From contig NZ_SAXY01000063.1 of NCBI RefSeq assembly GCF_008016535.1, positions 1 to 64,000 of the forward strand: a stretch of DNA of 64,000 bases, given 5' to 3'. The notes beneath the pieces are model-generated. The model did not search any database and had not been told where the DNA came from. It saw only the letters and a program-made list of their open reading frames with translations. The translations under genes and the position numbers were made by a program. This DNA is from Brachyspira pilosicoli (lineage in GTDB: Bacteria; Spirochaetota; Brachyspiria; Brachyspirales; Brachyspiraceae). Positions 37,293 to 45,272 of the stretch are shown here, one piece after another. Position 1 is the first letter of the stretch. Every line of letters begins with the position of its first letter.

Positions 37293-37321
37293 TTGACAAA
37301 AATGACACATAATAGTAAAAT
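37293..37321 (+). promoter_or_regulatory. Promoter of the rpmF-plsX operon
   Basis: TTGACA (37293-37298) and TAAAAT (37316-37321) are separated by 17 bases. They lie 54 bases before the rpmF start, which has the ribosome site aaggaga. Confidence 0.75.
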
Positions 37322-37375: not shown

Positions 37376-37570
37376 ATGGCTGTACCTAAGCATAGAAAAT
37401 CGAAATCTAAAAAGAGATCAAGACAAGCTGCTAATGATAAAAGATTTTTAGGTTCTTTATCAATCTGTCCTCAATGCGGAGCAGAAAGAATGCCGCACAG
37501 AATTTGTCCTGAATGCGGATTTTATAAAGATAGAGTAGTAAAAGCTAATAAAAATCAAAATGCTGGTTAA
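37376..37570 (+). CDS. rpmF: 50S ribosomal protein L32
   Basis: The protein has 64 residues. It begins MAVPKHRKSKSKKRSRQA and carries the zinc-binding cysteines CPQC (31, 34) and CPEC (44, 47). It precedes plsX by 19 bases, the widely conserved rpmF-plsX order linking ribosome and lipid synthesis. Confidence 0.98.
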   Translation: MAVPKHRKSKSKKRSRQAANDKRFLGSLSICPQCGAERMPHRICPECGFYKDRVVKANKNQNAG

Positions 37571-37589: not shown

Positions 37590-38609
37590 ATGAATTTATC
37601 CATAGATGTTGCTAGCGGTGAAAAACCTCTAGATGAATTAGTTGATGGTGCAATTAAGGCGTTGTCTTTAAATAAAGATGTTAATTTAATATTGGTTGGC
37701 AATGAAAAAGATATAGTTAAATCTTTATCATCATTAAAATATAATAAAAATCGTGTAGATATAAAGCATAGTGATTCTATCATAGAAATGACAGAAACAC
37801 CTGCAGTTGCTGTTAAACATAAAAAGAATGCTTCTGTATTAGTAGCTGCACGATTGGTATCAGATAAAAAAACAGAAGGTTTCTTTTCACCGGGCAATAC
37901 AGGTGCTACTTTGGCGGCTGCACTTACAGAGATAGGCCGTTTAAAAGGAGTTATGCGTCCCCCTTTAGTATCCACAGTTCCTAAAATAGGCGGTGAGTTT
38001 TGTATGATGGATATGGGGGCTAATGTTGATTGTACACCAGATTATATGGCACAATTTGCTGTTATGGGAAGGGTTTTTGCTAAAAGATACATGAATATAA
38101 ATAACCCAAGAGTTGCTATTTTAAATATAGGTGAAGAAGACAGTAAAGGTAATGCTGCTGTAAAAAAATACTTTGAAAGATTAGAAAAAATGAAAAAAAT
38201 AAATTTTGTAGGCAATGTTGAGCCTAACAGCATGTTAAAATCTGATATAGCTGATGTTGTGCTTGCAGACGGCTTTGACGGCAACATAGTATTAAAAAGC
38301 ATTGAAGGAACTGCTAGTTTAATGGTGCATTTGCTAAAGAGCGAAATAAAAAAGAGTCCTCTCAATATGATGGGGGCAGTTATGATGAAGTCTGTATTTA
38401 AAAATTTAAAGACACAGATGAGTGCTGATTCTTATGGTTCTGCTATATTGCTTGGATTAAATGGGGGAGCTTTTGTTGGACATGGTACTACTGGTAGAGT
38501 TGGTGTAACAAATGCTGTACTTAATATGTATAAATTCTTGGATGCTAAAATAAATGAGAAAATATCTAAAGAACTTTTAGATTCTGGTGTAAAAAGAAGA
38601 ATTTTTTAA
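37590..38609 (+). CDS. plsX: Phosphate acyltransferase PlsX
   Basis: The protein has 339 residues, the standard length. Family blocks: IDVASGEKPLDELVDGA, GFFSPGNTGATLAAAL, RPPLVSTVPKIGGEFCMMDM, and DGFDGNIVLKSIEGTASLM. It makes acyl-phosphate from acyl-ACP for PlsY. The N-terminus lacks the common GGD motif (here IDVASGEKP). It sits between rpmF and a FabH-like gene. Confidence 0.95.
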   Translation: MNLSIDVASGEKPLDELVDGAIKALSLNKDVNLILVGNEKDIVKSLSSLKYNKNRVDIKHSDSIIEMTETPAVAVKHKKNASVLVAARLVSDKKTEGFFSPGNTGATLAAALTEIGRLKGVMRPPLVSTVPKIGGEFCMMDMGANVDCTPDYMAQFAVMGRVFAKRYMNINNPRVAILNIGEEDSKGNAAVKKYFERLEKMKKINFVGNVEPNSMLKSDIADVVLADGFDGNIVLKSIEGTASLMVHLLKSEIKKSPLNMMGAVMMKSVFKNLKTQMSADSYGSAILLGLNGGAFVGHGTTGRVGVTNAVLNMYKFLDAKINEKISKELLDSGVKRRIF

Positions 38610-38623
38610 AAGGGTTTTTATAT

Positions 38624-39478
38624 ATGGTATATATTAAATCTTGTAAAGCTACTTATAAAAATAAACAAACCTCTATGCCTGCATCTGAATTAGCTATGGA
38701 GTCTATTAAAGATGTTATAAAAAATATAGATCCATTAACTATAGATGCTATTATTTGTGCTACTGTTACTAAAGACTATATTTATCCTTCTACTGCTTGT
38801 GTATTAGGAGGTAAAATTAATGCCAAAAATGCTTTCTGTTTTGACATAGAAAGTGATTTTACTGGTTTTATATCAGCTTTAAGGCTTGCTTATGCTTTTG
38901 TAAAAAGTAATAGATATAAAAACATATTAGTAGTAGCTGCAGAATCTTTTTATATTTGCGATGATACTAATAGATTTGATGATGCTTCTGTAGCTGCTAT
39001 GGTTTCTAATGAAAAATCAAACATTGAGATATCATTTATAGATTCTGTTACAGATGGAAATGCTTTAGAGAATTGTTATATCCCTATGGGAGGAACTGCT
39101 AAGCCATATACTAAAGAAGGCGTTAATAATAAAGAACATTTCATTTCTATAAAAAATGATGATATATTTGAAAGTGAAGCAAAAAAAGCCGCACTATACG
39201 TAAAAGAAACTTTATCTAAAAATAACATAGAACCTACTTACTACATACCATCATATTCTAGCAAAAATGCTTTTGATGCTTTTGTTAATGCTTTAGATGT
39301 TTCTAAAGAGATTGTTTACACCAAAATGGAGAATGCAAACTCTTCATTAAGTGCTTCTTCTGGGGTTGCTCTTTCTATGGCTTTAGAGGATGGAAGTATA
39401 AAGAAAAATACTAAATTAGCTTTATGCAGTTATGGAAGCGGTTATACTAGGGCTGTTGCTGTATTAAATATTGATTAA
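38624..39478 (+). CDS. FabH-like thiolase-fold protein lacking the catalytic cysteine and histidine
   Basis: The protein has 284 residues, about 30 shorter than FabH (317-330). It aligns with FabH: YPSTACVLGG with FPSAACQIQS, and NAFCFDIESDFTGFISAL with the active-site block. Phe79 replaces the catalytic Cys. The VPHQAN motif is replaced by IPSYSSK, so the catalytic His is lost; the Asn block survives as ANSSLSASSG. The N-terminal RTGI region is missing. Gene order plsX-fabH is the usual one, and it lies 14 bases after plsX. It cannot perform normal decarboxylating condensation. It may be a structural or regulatory partner, or a different enzyme. Confidence 0.82.
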   Translation: MVYIKSCKATYKNKQTSMPASELAMESIKDVIKNIDPLTIDAIICATVTKDYIYPSTACVLGGKINAKNAFCFDIESDFTGFISALRLAYAFVKSNRYKNILVVAAESFYICDDTNRFDDASVAAMVSNEKSNIEISFIDSVTDGNALENCYIPMGGTAKPYTKEGVNNKEHFISIKNDDIFESEAKKAALYVKETLSKNNIEPTYYIPSYSSKNAFDAFVNALDVSKEIVYTKMENANSSLSASSGVALSMALEDGSIKKNTKLALCSYGSGYTRAVAVLNID

Positions 39479-39522: not shown

Positions 39523-40830
39523 ATGAAGTTAGGTAAATTTCGTTTTGGGGGTGTACATCCTCATGATAGTAAAGATACTGCTCAAATAGCTTCTTCTGCT
39601 ATGACCCAAGCTCCAAAATCAGTTTTAATATCTATGGCACAGCATATAGGTGCTCCTGCTAAAATGTTAAAAAACAAAGGAGATAAAGTTCAAAGAGGGG
39701 AGATGATTGGAGAAGCTAGCGGATATGTATCTGGAAATGTGTTTTCTTCTGTTAGCGGTACTATTGCTAATATAGAAATTGCTCCGCAGCCTTTGGGTAG
39801 GGGAGCTAGTGCTTTTTTAATCAATTTAGATGCTGAAGCTAATAATGTTGATTTTGCTCTAAACAATAATTATATGGCATTATCTGCAGAAGAAATGTCT
39901 AAGAAGATTCAAAAGGCTGGTATAGTTGGTATGGGAGGAGCTACTTTCCCTACTAATGTTAAAGTTGATGGTGCGGCGAAGGGTAATTGTGATACTTTAA
40001 TTATTAATGGTGTTGAGTGTGAGCCTTATATTACTAGTGATTATAGGCTTATGATGGAGTATACTGAGGATTTATTCAAAGGTATAGAAATTTTAAGAAA
40101 GATTATTCCTTCTGTAAAAAGAACTGTTATTGGTATAGAGGCTAATAAACCTTTAGCTATTGAAGAGATGGGAAAGGTTGCTAAAAATTATAATGTTGAA
40201 GTAATGCCTTTAAGACTTCGTTATCCGCAGGGGGCTGAAAAGATGCTTATTGATGCTGCTGCTGGTAGGGTTGTACCTGTAGGTAAGCTTCCTATGGATG
40301 TTAGTGTGTTGGTTGTGAATGTGGCTACTTTATATGCTATATATGAAGCTGTTGCTAAAGACAAGCCTTTAATAGAGAGAATTGTTACTGTATCCGGCGA
40401 TGCTATAAAAGAACATAAAAATATTTGGGTGCCGCTTGGTACGCCTATTTCGCATATAGTTAATGAGTGCGGCGGACTTATTTCTGAAGATGTGCTTGTT
40501 ATAGCGGGCGGTCCTATGATGGGGGCTAGTGTGCCTAGTTTGGAGCAATGCGTTAATAAAGGTACTAACTCTTTACTTTTATTAGATAAAAATAAATTGC
40601 CTAAAGAAGTGGAATATCCTTGTATTAAATGCGGAAGATGTGCTGATGCTTGTCCGCTTCATCTTGCTCCTACTGATATAGCTCATACTGCTAAGGCTAA
40701 AGTTAAAGATAAATTAAATGCTTTAGATATAGCTACTTGTTTTGAATGCGGATGCTGTTCTTATATTTGTCCTTCCAAAATACCTTTGGTACAATGGATT
40801 AGATATGGTAAAGATTTGTTAAGGAGATGA
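39523..40830 (+). CDS. rnfC: Rnf complex subunit C (NADH- and 4Fe-4S-binding)
   Basis: The protein has 435 residues. The N-terminal block FGGVHPHDSKD and the flavin/NADH region GMGGATFPTNVK with NGVECEPYITSDYR are typical of RnfC. Two ferredoxin-type clusters lie near the C-terminus: CIKCGRCADACPLHLAP and CFECGCCSYICPSKIPL. Rnf couples ferredoxin:NAD electron transfer to Na or H translocation. It is followed 4 bases later by rnfD. Confidence 0.96.
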   Translation: MKLGKFRFGGVHPHDSKDTAQIASSAMTQAPKSVLISMAQHIGAPAKMLKNKGDKVQRGEMIGEASGYVSGNVFSSVSGTIANIEIAPQPLGRGASAFLINLDAEANNVDFALNNNYMALSAEEMSKKIQKAGIVGMGGATFPTNVKVDGAAKGNCDTLIINGVECEPYITSDYRLMMEYTEDLFKGIEILRKIIPSVKRTVIGIEANKPLAIEEMGKVAKNYNVEVMPLRLRYPQGAEKMLIDAAAGRVVPVGKLPMDVSVLVVNVATLYAIYEAVAKDKPLIERIVTVSGDAIKEHKNIWVPLGTPISHIVNECGGLISEDVLVIAGGPMMGASVPSLEQCVNKGTNSLLLLDKNKLPKEVEYPCIKCGRCADACPLHLAPTDIAHTAKAKVKDKLNALDIATCFECGCCSYICPSKIPLVQWIRYGKDLLRR

Positions 40831-40834
40831 GATA

Positions 40835-41926
40835 ATGAAGTTATATACTGAATCTTCTCCTCATATAAAAGATGGAGATACTACACAAAAAATTATGTTG
40901 AGAGTAATTATTGCTCTTTTGCCTGCTATTATATATAGCGTAGTATTATTTGGCAATAGAGTAATTTTATTATATCTCGCTTCTATTATTACTTGTATTT
41001 TATGTAATATAATTGTTAGAAAGGTGCGAAAACAGCCTGTGCTTCCTGATTATGCTTCAGTGGTTACGGCTTTGCTTTTAGTGATGACTTTACCTTCTAG
41101 TGCTACTATTACTATGGTTGTTATTGGTGGTGTTGTTGCTATTGTTTTTGCTAAGGAAGTTTTTGGCGGTTTGGGTTCTAATATATTTAACCCTGCTTTA
41201 GTTGGAAGGGCTTTTTTACAAGTTGCTTTCCCTGCTCAAATGAGTGCTTATACGCCTCCTGTTAGAGTGCCTTTCCTCAATTTATTTGCTGATGGACTTA
41301 GTAATTTAGTTAATACTGTTACTGGCGGTACTCAAACTATTGATATGATTACTGCTCTATCACAGGCTACTCCTCTAACTTTTATGAAATTCACTTATAA
41401 TAATAATATCAGCACTTCTCTAATAGAACAAATTAAGTTTGAAGCACACTATTATGTTCAAATGCTCGTAGGAAGCACTGGCGGAGCTATAGGTGAAACT
41501 TCTGTTATACTCCTTACAATAGGCGGAATATTCTTAATTGTTACTAAGACTATAGATTGGAGAATACCTCTAGGAATGTTCATCTCTTTATTTGTAGTAA
41601 GTTTAATACTTTGCCTTGCTATGCCTGGAAAGTTTGCTTCTCCTATATATCAAGTATTTGCAGGCGGATTTATTTTAGGTGCTTTCTTTATGGCTACTGA
41701 TATGGTTACTTGTCCTTCTAGTCATTTAGGTGCTTGGATATATGCACTATTAATTGGTGCTGTACTTGCAATACTTAGGGCTTTTGGTTCTTCACCAGAA
41801 TACACTATGTATTCTATATTAATAGGAAACATGTTTATGCCTCTAATAGCTATGTATACTCGTCCTAAACCTTTTGGTAAGAAAGAGGCTATAAATATTG
41901 AAAAACAACAAGGAGCAAAACAATGA
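40835..41926 (+). CDS. rnfD: Rnf complex subunit D (membrane, FMN-binding)
   Basis: The protein has 363 residues and about nine to ten membrane helices. Signatures: SSPHIKDGDTTQKIMLRVI, FGGLGSNIFNPALVGRAF and FFMATDMVTCPSSHLG. Other RnfD proteins carry a covalent FMN on a Thr in an SGAT-like motif; here GGTQTIDMITALSQATPLT occupies that region. Its stop overlaps the rnfG start (ATGA). Confidence 0.95.
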   Translation: MKLYTESSPHIKDGDTTQKIMLRVIIALLPAIIYSVVLFGNRVILLYLASIITCILCNIIVRKVRKQPVLPDYASVVTALLLVMTLPSSATITMVVIGGVVAIVFAKEVFGGLGSNIFNPALVGRAFLQVAFPAQMSAYTPPVRVPFLNLFADGLSNLVNTVTGGTQTIDMITALSQATPLTFMKFTYNNNISTSLIEQIKFEAHYYVQMLVGSTGGAIGETSVILLTIGGIFLIVTKTIDWRIPLGMFISLFVVSLILCLAMPGKFASPIYQVFAGGFILGAFFMATDMVTCPSSHLGAWIYALLIGAVLAILRAFGSSPEYTMYSILIGNMFMPLIAMYTRPKPFGKKEAINIEKQQGAKQ

Positions 41927-42495
41927 AAAAAGAAGTTACATATAAAGCTGTAATATCTGTTACAGTAACTGCTCTAATTGCTGGATTTTTATTATCATTT
42001 GTTTATTCTTCTTTTGAGAAAGATATTTTAGCAAACAATGAAAAAACTGTATTAAATGGTGTTAAGGCTGTTATACCTAATGCTGATAATATAGAAGGTC
42101 CTATTACTGAAAATGCTACTTATCCATATTATATTGGTACTAAGGCTGATGGTTCTGTAGCTGGTTATGCTATACTTTCTTCTGCCGGCGGATATAATGG
42201 TCAAAACAAAGTATTAGTTGGTTTTAGCGGCGATGCTACTACTGTTACAGGAATTGTTGTTACTGAACAGGCTGAAACTCCGGGACTTGGTGCTAAAATT
42301 GTAGAGCCTAGTTTTAGAGATCAATTTGCTAATAAAAGTTCTGTTGTGCCTCTTACTGTTGTAAAAGGTATAAAACCAGAGGAAGCTCTTGATGCTCAAA
42401 TAGCTGCTATAAGCGGTGCTACTATATCATCTACTTCTGTTGTTACCGCTGTTAATAGTGCTAATGAACAGGCTGTTAGTTTATTTGTAAAATAA
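41923..42495 (+). CDS. rnfG: Rnf complex subunit G (covalent FMN)
   Basis: The protein has 190 residues with one N-terminal helix and a periplasmic domain. The flavinylation motif is AISGATISSTSVV near the C-terminus; the first Thr carries FMN by a phosphoester bond in this family. It also has ETPGLGAKI. It overlaps rnfD by 4 bases and is followed at once by a terminator, so rnfE, rnfA and rnfB are absent from this operon. Confidence 0.95.
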   Translation: MKKEVTYKAVISVTVTALIAGFLLSFVYSSFEKDILANNEKTVLNGVKAVIPNADNIEGPITENATYPYYIGTKADGSVAGYAILSSAGGYNGQNKVLVGFSGDATTVTGIVVTEQAETPGLGAKIVEPSFRDQFANKSSVVPLTVVKGIKPEEALDAQIAAISGATISSTSVVTAVNSANEQAVSLFVK

Positions 42496-42887: not shown

Positions 42888-45272
42888 TTATTGATTGCCG
42901 TATTTAGCTCCGCTTTTTATTAAATAATCTACTGTGTTGCTATATCCATTTTCATTTGCTAAATCTAATGGTGTTTTCCCTTCATTATTCTTTGTATTTA
43001 TGCTTAAAAATGTATTATATAAATAAAAACTTATAGCATTATTGTTGCCGTAGCTTGCTGCAATATGAAGTACGCTGTCGCCATTAGAGCTTTTAAAATT
43101 ATATATAGTAGGGTATTTTTGAAGTATTTTATTTAATAGGGCATAATCTCCAAAAGCAGAAGCATAAAATATTCCATTATATCCTTTTGAATCTTCCATA
43201 TATATATCAGCATTACTGTCCATAAGCATAGAAACTATATCAATATTTCCTTTAAATATAGCATATTCTAAAGGGGTTGTTTTATCAAATATCAATTCTC
43301 CGCTAAAATTAATACCTTTTTTAGAATAGTAATTAGTATAATTGTCTAATGTTTTATTTATATCTATTTTATCAGTATAGCTTAAAAGTGTATTAAGAGC
43401 GTTAGTTTTATCATAATGAATAGCATAGAGGAGCGGAGTAAATCCTTCAGAGTTTCTTACATTAATATCAATAGTGTTAGAGATGGCATTATGTATTAAA
43501 GCGGCATCATCTTTATAAATAGCATCAAAAAGAATCTTACTTTCTAATTGAGCTGATTGATATTCATTATTTTCTTTTTTATAATAAGAAGCATCATCAT
43601 CCGGCATATTATCATATAAAAAATCTTCCATAATATTATTAACATTATTTGCCTGAATGGTATTTAAATTATTATATGAATTTGTGCTGTAAATATTAGT
43701 ATCTGAAAAACTACCCATTATATTTTCTATACTATCACCATACAACAAATCTGAAGCAGTTTTGCCGTCATAATTTTTTATAGTATAATCAGCCCCCTTT
43801 AATAATAAAAATCTATAAGTATTGCTATTATTATTTTTTACAGCCAAATGCAAAGGAGTATCTCCATTAACATTTTGTATATTTATATTAATAGGAGTTC
43901 TATTCATAAGTGCAATTAAAGCATTAGTGTTTCCAAGTGATGATGCATTATGCAAAGGAGTGTTTCCGTATATATCTACTACCCTATAAGAATTACTGCT
44001 GTAGTTTAAAATTGTATCAATAACTTCAGCACTAGAAAATCTAGCAGCATACATTAAAGCATTGTCTCCTAAACTGTCTTTTCTGTTTATGTCTGCCCCA
44101 TAATGTAAAAGTGTGTTTATTATATTAGTGTTATTTTTAAATATAGCATACTGCAAAGGGCTGACATCACCCAAATATACATTGCCCCTAAACTCTGCTC
44201 TATCTTCATTAAAATAAACTTCATCAGCTGGTATATAAGAAGTTTCTATATTTATAATATTTGTATTATTTTTTCTATAACTTAAAAGTTCATCAACCAT
44301 ATCATATTTATCAAGATGTATAGCATAAGTGAGAGGAGTTTCATAAGCCATAATTATAGAGTTCATATTAAAATTAGAATACATCATTATATCTCTTAAT
44401 GCATTAGTATCTGATGTTTGAATAACTCTTGCAATAAACATGTTTTCATTGTAAGTGTTTGTATTATTATCTTCTTTGTTTTCTAAGTCAATAGCAGAAC
44501 TTTCTCCTGATAATATATATTCCGGAGTAACTCCATAATTATCAGCTATATCTTTATTAGCACCAAGTTTAATAAGAAGATTATAAGCATCTTGTTTTTG
44601 ATAATATGCTGCATAGTATAAAGCAGTGCATCCATTAGAATCCCTATCATTAATATTCATATCAACATTTTTAACTAAGAAATTAATAGTATTTAAATTA
44701 TTAAAAGCAGCAGCATAATGAAGCCCATTAAGATTGCCGTTGGAGGTTCTATCATTAACTATTACTTTGTCTTTTTGAAGGAGCATTCTTATAATATTGC
44801 TGTCTCCAAAACCGCATGCATATAAAAATACAGAGTTGCCCTCATTGTCTTTAGCTCTAACATTAGCCCCCTTGTCTATAAGCTCTTTAACTGCTTTTGA
44901 ATTATTTTTAAATATAGCAAACATTAAAGGAGTAGCTCCTCCTATATTAACGCTATCGCCTTCATATTTATTTACAAACGGATAAGCTGCAAAATCATCA
45001 TGAAGTCTATATTCAATATTAACATCACTATACTCAAGAAGCACTCTCAAAGCCCTTTTATTGTTACATTCAATAGTATATAAAAGCGGAGTTAATCCCA
45101 TTTCATTTGTAGCAGAAAAGTTCACTCTGTATTTTAAAATCTCTCTTAAATCCCTTTCATTTTTCTTTTCTTTTATAGCCAAAAATAATTCACTTTCTTT
45201 TTGATTTATAGCGTATATATTAAAATTAACAGAAAAAAGTAATATAATTAATAAAAATATATTTCTAATCAT
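42888..45272 (-). CDS. Large secreted ankyrin-repeat protein with three super-modules
   Basis: The protein has 794 residues with an N-terminal signal peptide (about 1-22). The rest is ankyrin repeats arranged as three similar modules of about 260 residues. Each module starts with a '(L/I)F.AI' helix and a 'TPLLYAI' repeat, has an insert before a 'TPL.YAIFK.N' repeat, then 'ALMYA..F' and 'LH.AA..NN' repeats; the first two end in a short acidic Ser/Asn linker. Ankyrin repeats bind proteins. Location is periplasmic or outer-surface by signal peptide; no lipobox is seen. It is separated from the next ankyrin gene by repeats. The partner is unknown. Confidence 0.88.
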   Translation of the reverse strand: MIRNIFLLIILLFSVNFNIYAINQKESELFLAIKEKKNERDLREILKYRVNFSATNEMGLTPLLYTIECNNKRALRVLLEYSDVNIEYRLHDDFAAYPFVNKYEGDSVNIGGATPLMFAIFKNNSKAVKELIDKGANVRAKDNEGNSVFLYACGFGDSNIIRMLLQKDKVIVNDRTSNGNLNGLHYAAAFNNLNTINFLVKNVDMNINDRDSNGCTALYYAAYYQKQDAYNLLIKLGANKDIADNYGVTPEYILSGESSAIDLENKEDNNTNTYNENMFIARVIQTSDTNALRDIMMYSNFNMNSIIMAYETPLTYAIHLDKYDMVDELLSYRKNNTNIINIETSYIPADEVYFNEDRAEFRGNVYLGDVSPLQYAIFKNNTNIINTLLHYGADINRKDSLGDNALMYAARFSSAEVIDTILNYSSNSYRVVDIYGNTPLHNASSLGNTNALIALMNRTPININIQNVNGDTPLHLAVKNNNSNTYRFLLLKGADYTIKNYDGKTASDLLYGDSIENIMGSFSDTNIYSTNSYNNLNTIQANNVNNIMEDFLYDNMPDDDASYYKKENNEYQSAQLESKILFDAIYKDDAALIHNAISNTIDINVRNSEGFTPLLYAIHYDKTNALNTLLSYTDKIDINKTLDNYTNYYSKKGINFSGELIFDKTTPLEYAIFKGNIDIVSMLMDSNADIYMEDSKGYNGIFYASAFGDYALLNKILQKYPTIYNFKSSNGDSVLHIAASYGNNNAISFYLYNTFLSINTKNNEGKTPLDLANENGYSNTVDYLIKSGAKYGNQ

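Follow-up and report, generated by a model that had tools for sequence, protein, structure and literature searches.

A FabH-like protein lacking the catalytic residues is retained beside plsX across Brachyspiraceae and may be a non-catalytic FabH subunit

FabH starts type II fatty-acid synthesis; it usually acts as a homodimer in which both active sites are functional, and it is pursued as an antibacterial target. Within a 64,000-nucleotide stretch of a Brachyspira pilosicoli contig (the window), we analysed a FabH-like gene, here called pseudo-FabH, that forms the third member of a conserved rpmF-plsX-fabH-like unit (Table 1). The unit begins with rpmF, and a similar neighbour occupies the same place in relatives. 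In a genome-wide profile search of B. pilosicoli, plsX was the single match to PF02504. The ATG of the pseudo-FabH gene is preceded at a plausible distance by the purine-rich motif AAAAGGG, and the encoded protein is 94% identical to its counterpart in strain T010. Promoter-like sites were not more numerous than in shuffled sequence, the best candidate lying at 37293-37321. Downstream, rnfC and further Rnf-type genes (window 39523-42495) lie on the same strand as the pseudo-FabH gene, and no terminator-like site was found in the 44 bp between the pseudo-FabH stop codon and rnfC; because of the shared strand, the short spacing and the lack of such a site, the Rnf-type genes may be co-transcribed with rpmF-plsX. 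Farther along, the minus strand encodes a 794-aa protein (window 42888-45272) in which a signal-like segment at the N terminus and many repeats of the ankyrin type were recognised by eye.

Table 1. Features of the rpmF-plsX-pseudo-FabH region, in window coordinates.
Feature	Position	Strand	Remarks
rpmF (ribosomal protein L32)	37376..37570	+	64-aa ORF
plsX (phosphate acyltransferase)	37590..38609	+	339 aa, intact; Pfam FA_synthesis PF02504, E=4.9e-84
pseudo-FabH (fabH-like) gene	38624..39478	+	284 aa, ATG start, internal stops absent
Internal deletion junction	38660..38668	+	~31 residues (E. coli FabH ~15-46) gone; gap in 28/28 orthologs
Tyr54	38783..38785	+	at E. coli Phe87 position; Tyr in 28/28
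Phe79	38858..38860	+	at catalytic Cys112 position; Phe in 28/28
Flap segment, residues 145-172 (E. coli 183-204)	39056..39139	+	more conserved than in FabH-a
Ser210	39251..39253	+	at catalytic His244 position; Ser in 28/28
Ser240	39341..39343	+	at catalytic Asn274 position; Ser in 26/28
rnfC	39523..40830	+	next gene downstream; 44 bp past the pseudo-FabH stop

Pseudo-FabH matched the Pfam families ACP_syn_III (34.7 bits) and ACP_syn_III_C (38.2 bits), both above the curated cut-offs, and scored 129.8 bits against the NCBIfam fabH model TIGR00747, far under its cut-off of 292.1. An AlphaFold model, for which the input alignment was limited to window and database loci, had a mean pLDDT of 84.7 and a pTM of 0.86, with low confidence in a few stretches, mainly about residues 111-120 and 141-180. 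The 50 Foldseek matches listed were all KAS III enzymes, FabHs among them, with query TM values of 0.76-0.86, and the best PDB match was a FabH (E 6.5e-22). From this predicted structure we are confident that pseudo-FabH has the thiolase-type FabH fold.

We aligned 28 full pseudo-FabH orthologs with E. coli FabH (K-12 record) and 54 other FabHs. The Cys/His/Asn triad was kept in 54/54 of the comparison proteins. The initial annotation had read an active-site block FDIESDFTGF with Phe for the catalytic Cys, and IPSYSSK where VPHQAN is expected; both readings were exact, with Phe79 aligned on Cys112 and Ser210 on His244, and the alignment additionally placed Ser240 on Asn274. The same annotation had the N-terminal RTGI block missing. 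The block is indeed absent, but the protein is not truncated at its N terminus: the first beta strand is retained (MVYIKS aligned to canonical AYIKN; residues 2-12 in the model) and the loss is an internal deletion of ~31 residues. The deleted segment holds Thr28, Trp32, Arg36 and Thr37, of which Trp32 and Arg36 form the CoA clamp. A second loss, of about 5-6 residues, follows Arg117. Among the ACP-docking residues, Lys214 has become Glu in 25 of the 28 proteins and Arg249 has become Asn and others; Asn247 is mostly replaced, and the oxyanion-hole Gly306 is Ser. From these substitutions we infer that pseudo-FabH would not have condensing activity. Tyr54 occupies the position of E. coli Phe87, the residue that extends into the active site of the partner subunit. 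A DNA pattern for DF-x-GF, scanned across the phylum, gave matches at background level only, and charge and pI did not separate pseudo-FabHs from real FabHs.

Catalysis could in principle have been relocated to a different Cys/His pair, such as Cys151 with His172 in the flap, giving an enzyme of another kind. Cys151 (Leu189 in canonical FabH) is present in 27 of the 28 orthologs and His172 is invariant, but Cys151 is Phe in the ortholog from genome G028, both His172 and Cys59 are common in canonical FabHs and therefore likely structural, and the oxyanion-hole glycine is lost as described. When we looked for another active-site Cys and His, the finding that the initial annotation had named as contrary to its reading, none of the 28 orthologs offered a pair both invariant and specific to pseudo-FabH. 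We regard relocated catalysis as very unlikely.

Exactly one pseudo-FabH ortholog was found in each of the 29 Brachyspiraceae genomes searched, comprising 26 Brachyspira (with the B. pilosicoli source genome) and three genomes from two other genera; one ortholog is cut by a contig end, leaving the 28 complete sequences used here. Phe79, whose conservation across the genus had been proposed as a check, is invariant (28/28) also beyond the genus. The gene lies directly after plsX in every genome where the stretch is assembled, with a gap of 12-58 nt in Brachyspira and -1 (a one-base overlap) in the second genus, so the plsX linkage first noted in B. pilosicoli is conserved family-wide. In one single-contig genome (G007), plsX and the second FabH both seem to be split by frameshifts (G007:C1:1140312-1141278, L089:2926-3946), through sequencing error or strain-level damage.

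In favour of a decaying relic heading for loss, pseudo-FabH evolves within the genus about twice as fast as the canonical FabH-a described below (mean distance 0.173 vs 0.084). This rate is, however, similar to those of plsX and rnfC. The frame is open in every complete copy across three genera, and dN/dS in near pairs is 0.04-0.13, close to plsX. Pseudo-FabH is thus under strong purifying selection and fixed in 28/28 complete orthologs, in agreement with the initial annotation, which had held that the gene is not debris and that its frame is intact. The selection data largely refute the relic reading, to which we give next to no chance.

In the sister family, represented by two genomes, a normal FabH follows plsX. 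Normal plsX-linked FabHs also occur in several other phyla, and the rpmF-plsX-fabH order is ancestral. The pseudo-FabH orthologs group as a single clade (100/100), and the branch leading to it is long. In AU tests, neither placement with the sister family's plsX-linked FabHs (p 0.24) nor placement with lone FabHs (p 0.24, 0.19) was rejected, and the shared residues split evenly, 8 and 8. Descent from a plsX-linked FabH therefore rests on synteny; the tree placement does not settle it. We also tried rate covariation (mirror tree) for PlsX vs FabH-a with rnfC as control; the result shifted with the genome set, with no consistent signal for either partner, and the analysis was dropped.

The suggestion that a real FabH might be encoded elsewhere was borne out: the B. 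pilosicoli genome encodes two canonical FabHs, FabH-a on contig C84 and FabH-b on contig C44, and other Brachyspiraceae genomes have one or two each. Residues W32, R36, C112, R151, K214, H244, N247, R249 and N274 are kept in 32/32 of the catalytic family FabHs examined. The gene immediately upstream of FabH-a encodes an encapsulin (Linocin_M18, PF04454, E 2.7e-45; L001:10-624, G000:C84 ~9.5-11.2 kb). As a separate observation on fatty-acid genes, a full-length AccA (PF03255) is present in genome G027 and was not found in G000, G007, G015, G020, G026 and G028 (Brachyspira and genus g2), where AccA gave only a partial match inside open frames of 425-518 aa.

We compared segment conservation between pseudo-FabH and FabH-a, both taken from the same seven genomes. 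Overall, pseudo-FabH is the less conserved (0.55 vs 0.63). The drop is most marked on the ACP face (0.34 vs 0.57), in the surroundings of Arg151 (0.55 vs 0.80) and in the PHQAN region (0.49 vs 0.66). The Phe87' loop (0.73 vs 0.69) and the dimer strand (0.76 vs 0.77) gave similar values in the two proteins, and the flap is tighter in pseudo-FabH (0.67 vs 0.51). Residues 145-172 gave the best 25-column excess, matched by 0/5000 column shuffles; the largest conservation deficit (206-230) was not significant (464/5000 shuffles).

The flap also distinguishes pseudo-FabH from the catalytic FabHs of the same family. A 34-residue flap with its Asp-Gly (E. coli 182-183) is intact in 28/28 pseudo-FabHs, whereas the Asp-Gly is kept in 0/32 catalytic Brachyspiraceae FabHs, whose flaps are 30-33 residues, or 1-4 short. 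Outside Brachyspiraceae the Asp-Gly is found in 39 of 42 FabHs (read off tabulated data), and both FabHs of each genome of the sister family, which has no pseudo-FabH, keep it. Most outgroup FabHs, the second FabH of the sister family included, have the full 34-residue flap with this Asp-Gly. The pattern in Brachyspiraceae is reciprocal: what is missing from the live FabHs is preserved in the dead one, and what is missing from the dead one is preserved in the live FabHs. The flap change maps to a single branch, the family stem, and is one event rather than many, so independent cases cannot be counted as a test.

In FabH structures the flap and the Phe87' loop are located where the two subunits of the dimer meet, next to the active site of the partner. 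Given this position and the reciprocal losses, we tentatively favour a heterodimer with divided labour, in which pseudo-FabH may be the non-catalytic half of a FabH-type dimer with one or both canonical FabHs. It would be a FabH-derived thiolase-fold protein kept for its dimer-side surface and not for condensation. In such a dimer, the active site of the partner would receive the intact flap and the loop with Tyr54 from pseudo-FabH, whereas Cys-His-Asn, the CoA clamp and the face that docks ACP would come from the catalytic FabH. Expression of pseudo-FabH from the rpmF-plsX operon could link the level of active initiation enzyme to PlsX. That the heterodimer forms, which protein is the partner, and that the arrangement has a regulatory role are points that we infer. 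The loss of the triad and ligand sites while the Phe87' position stays aromatic speaks for the pairing. Against it, the catalytic FabH genes lie on other contigs (C84 and C44), and the adjacent gene is plsX; moreover, a conserved flap and loop would equally serve a homodimer.

One such homodimer would be a sensor that has retained the fold and, beneath the flap, a pocket of acyl size; it would bind a ligand other than a CoA or ACP thioester and report lipid status. It is the flap, the cover of this pocket, that is conserved beyond its level in the enzymes, and D78-F79, which is invariant, aligns with the former active site together with further sites specific to pseudo-FabH. W32, R36, N247 and R249 are lost, however, and no regulator or DNA-binding domain appeared among the Pfam and NCBIfam matches. 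The initial annotation had suggested a scaffold or acyl-chain sensor for phospholipid synthesis; the loss of the CoA clamp and of the residues that dock ACP weakens the case for a sensor that recognises acyl-CoA or acyl-ACP in the way FabH normally docks them. We consider a sensor unlikely.

The neighbouring gene suggests another role, that of a scaffold that binds PlsX, with which it shares an operon, and holds acyl-ACP or acyl-phosphate in place or presents it, in the manner of GrdC/GrdD. GrdC and GrdD, of glycine reductase component C, make up one complex, and such a FabH-like/PlsX-like neighbour pair (component C beta/alpha, NF040746/NF040747) is encoded side by side in a congener (G017, L105:4156-6944). 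A second PF02504 match was seen in G007 (G007:C1:1232698-1233702). GrdC and GrdD nevertheless belong to families of their own and are encoded at another locus; GrdC has ~530 aa, scores 769 bits to NF040746, retains its Cys (GFDIRGFCAAP) and is only remotely related to pseudo-FabH, for which NF040746 was absent among the NCBIfam matches. A Brachyspira genome paper names fabH and plsX among the genes of the glycine reductase cluster (PMC2897892); these are probably grdC/grdD-type genes. The direct adjacency of pseudo-FabH and plsX says little for a scaffold, since the gene order is ancestral and shared with normal FabHs; the ACP-docking residues are gone, and the loss of the flap motif in the catalytic FabHs is left unexplained. 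A PlsX-bound scaffold, the main rival of the heterodimer reading, seems rather unlikely, and the kept flap and partner-contact loop, together with the reciprocal flap loss, would fit a dimer partner better than a scaffold for PlsX only.

Pseudo-FabH resembles typical FabH (TIGR00747; Aquifex 2EBD, E. coli 1HN9/9KA5) in fold (Foldseek TM 0.80-0.86 on the query), in its position after plsX and in Pfam family, but at 284 aa it is shorter than the ~320 aa of FabH and is without the Cys-His-Asn, the Trp32/Arg36 clamp and the basic ACP-docking residues. For the proposed pairing there are two precedents in FabH-type heteromers. In Pseudomonas, PqsB has none of the three triad residues and pairs with PqsC in a FabH-like heterodimer (PMC4807248). 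Like pseudo-FabH, it has the FabH fold, about 280 aa and no triad, and coexists with a catalytic FabH-type protein; it is, however, encoded beside its partner and acts in quinolone signalling, whereas pseudo-FabH sits beside PlsX in a fatty-acid and phospholipid context with the canonical FabHs elsewhere. For pseudo-FabH, a heterodimer is a proposal. The second heteromer is the lipstatin synthase LstAB, in which LstB is a FabH-like subunit that is predicted to contact its partner through the interface of the FabH homodimer (PMC12141560). Unlike pseudo-FabH, LstB gives an essential Glu to catalysis, is co-encoded with LstA and belongs to secondary metabolism. Our literature search turned up neither a core-pathway FabH with a dead sister subunit nor any description of the pseudo-FabH protein. 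Outside the specialised metabolism of PqsBC and LstAB, we know of no core-pathway FabH-type enzyme with such a subunit.

Extended to the whole pathway, the heterodimer reading raises the possibility, which we hold with more reserve than the pairing itself, that fatty-acid chain initiation in Brachyspiraceae depends on an obligately heteromeric FabH whose flap would be provided in trans by the pseudo-FabH of the plsX operon, coupling initiation to the PlsX branch point. If true, this would offer a simple example from nature of a homodimer that became a heteromer encoded by two genes, with the dead FabH at the ancestral plsX locus. In annotation, the Brachyspira gene beside plsX should not be taken for the cell's FabH. 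The family-wide retention of a FabH free of catalytic residues points to a non-enzymatic job, most likely that of a helper of the working FabHs.
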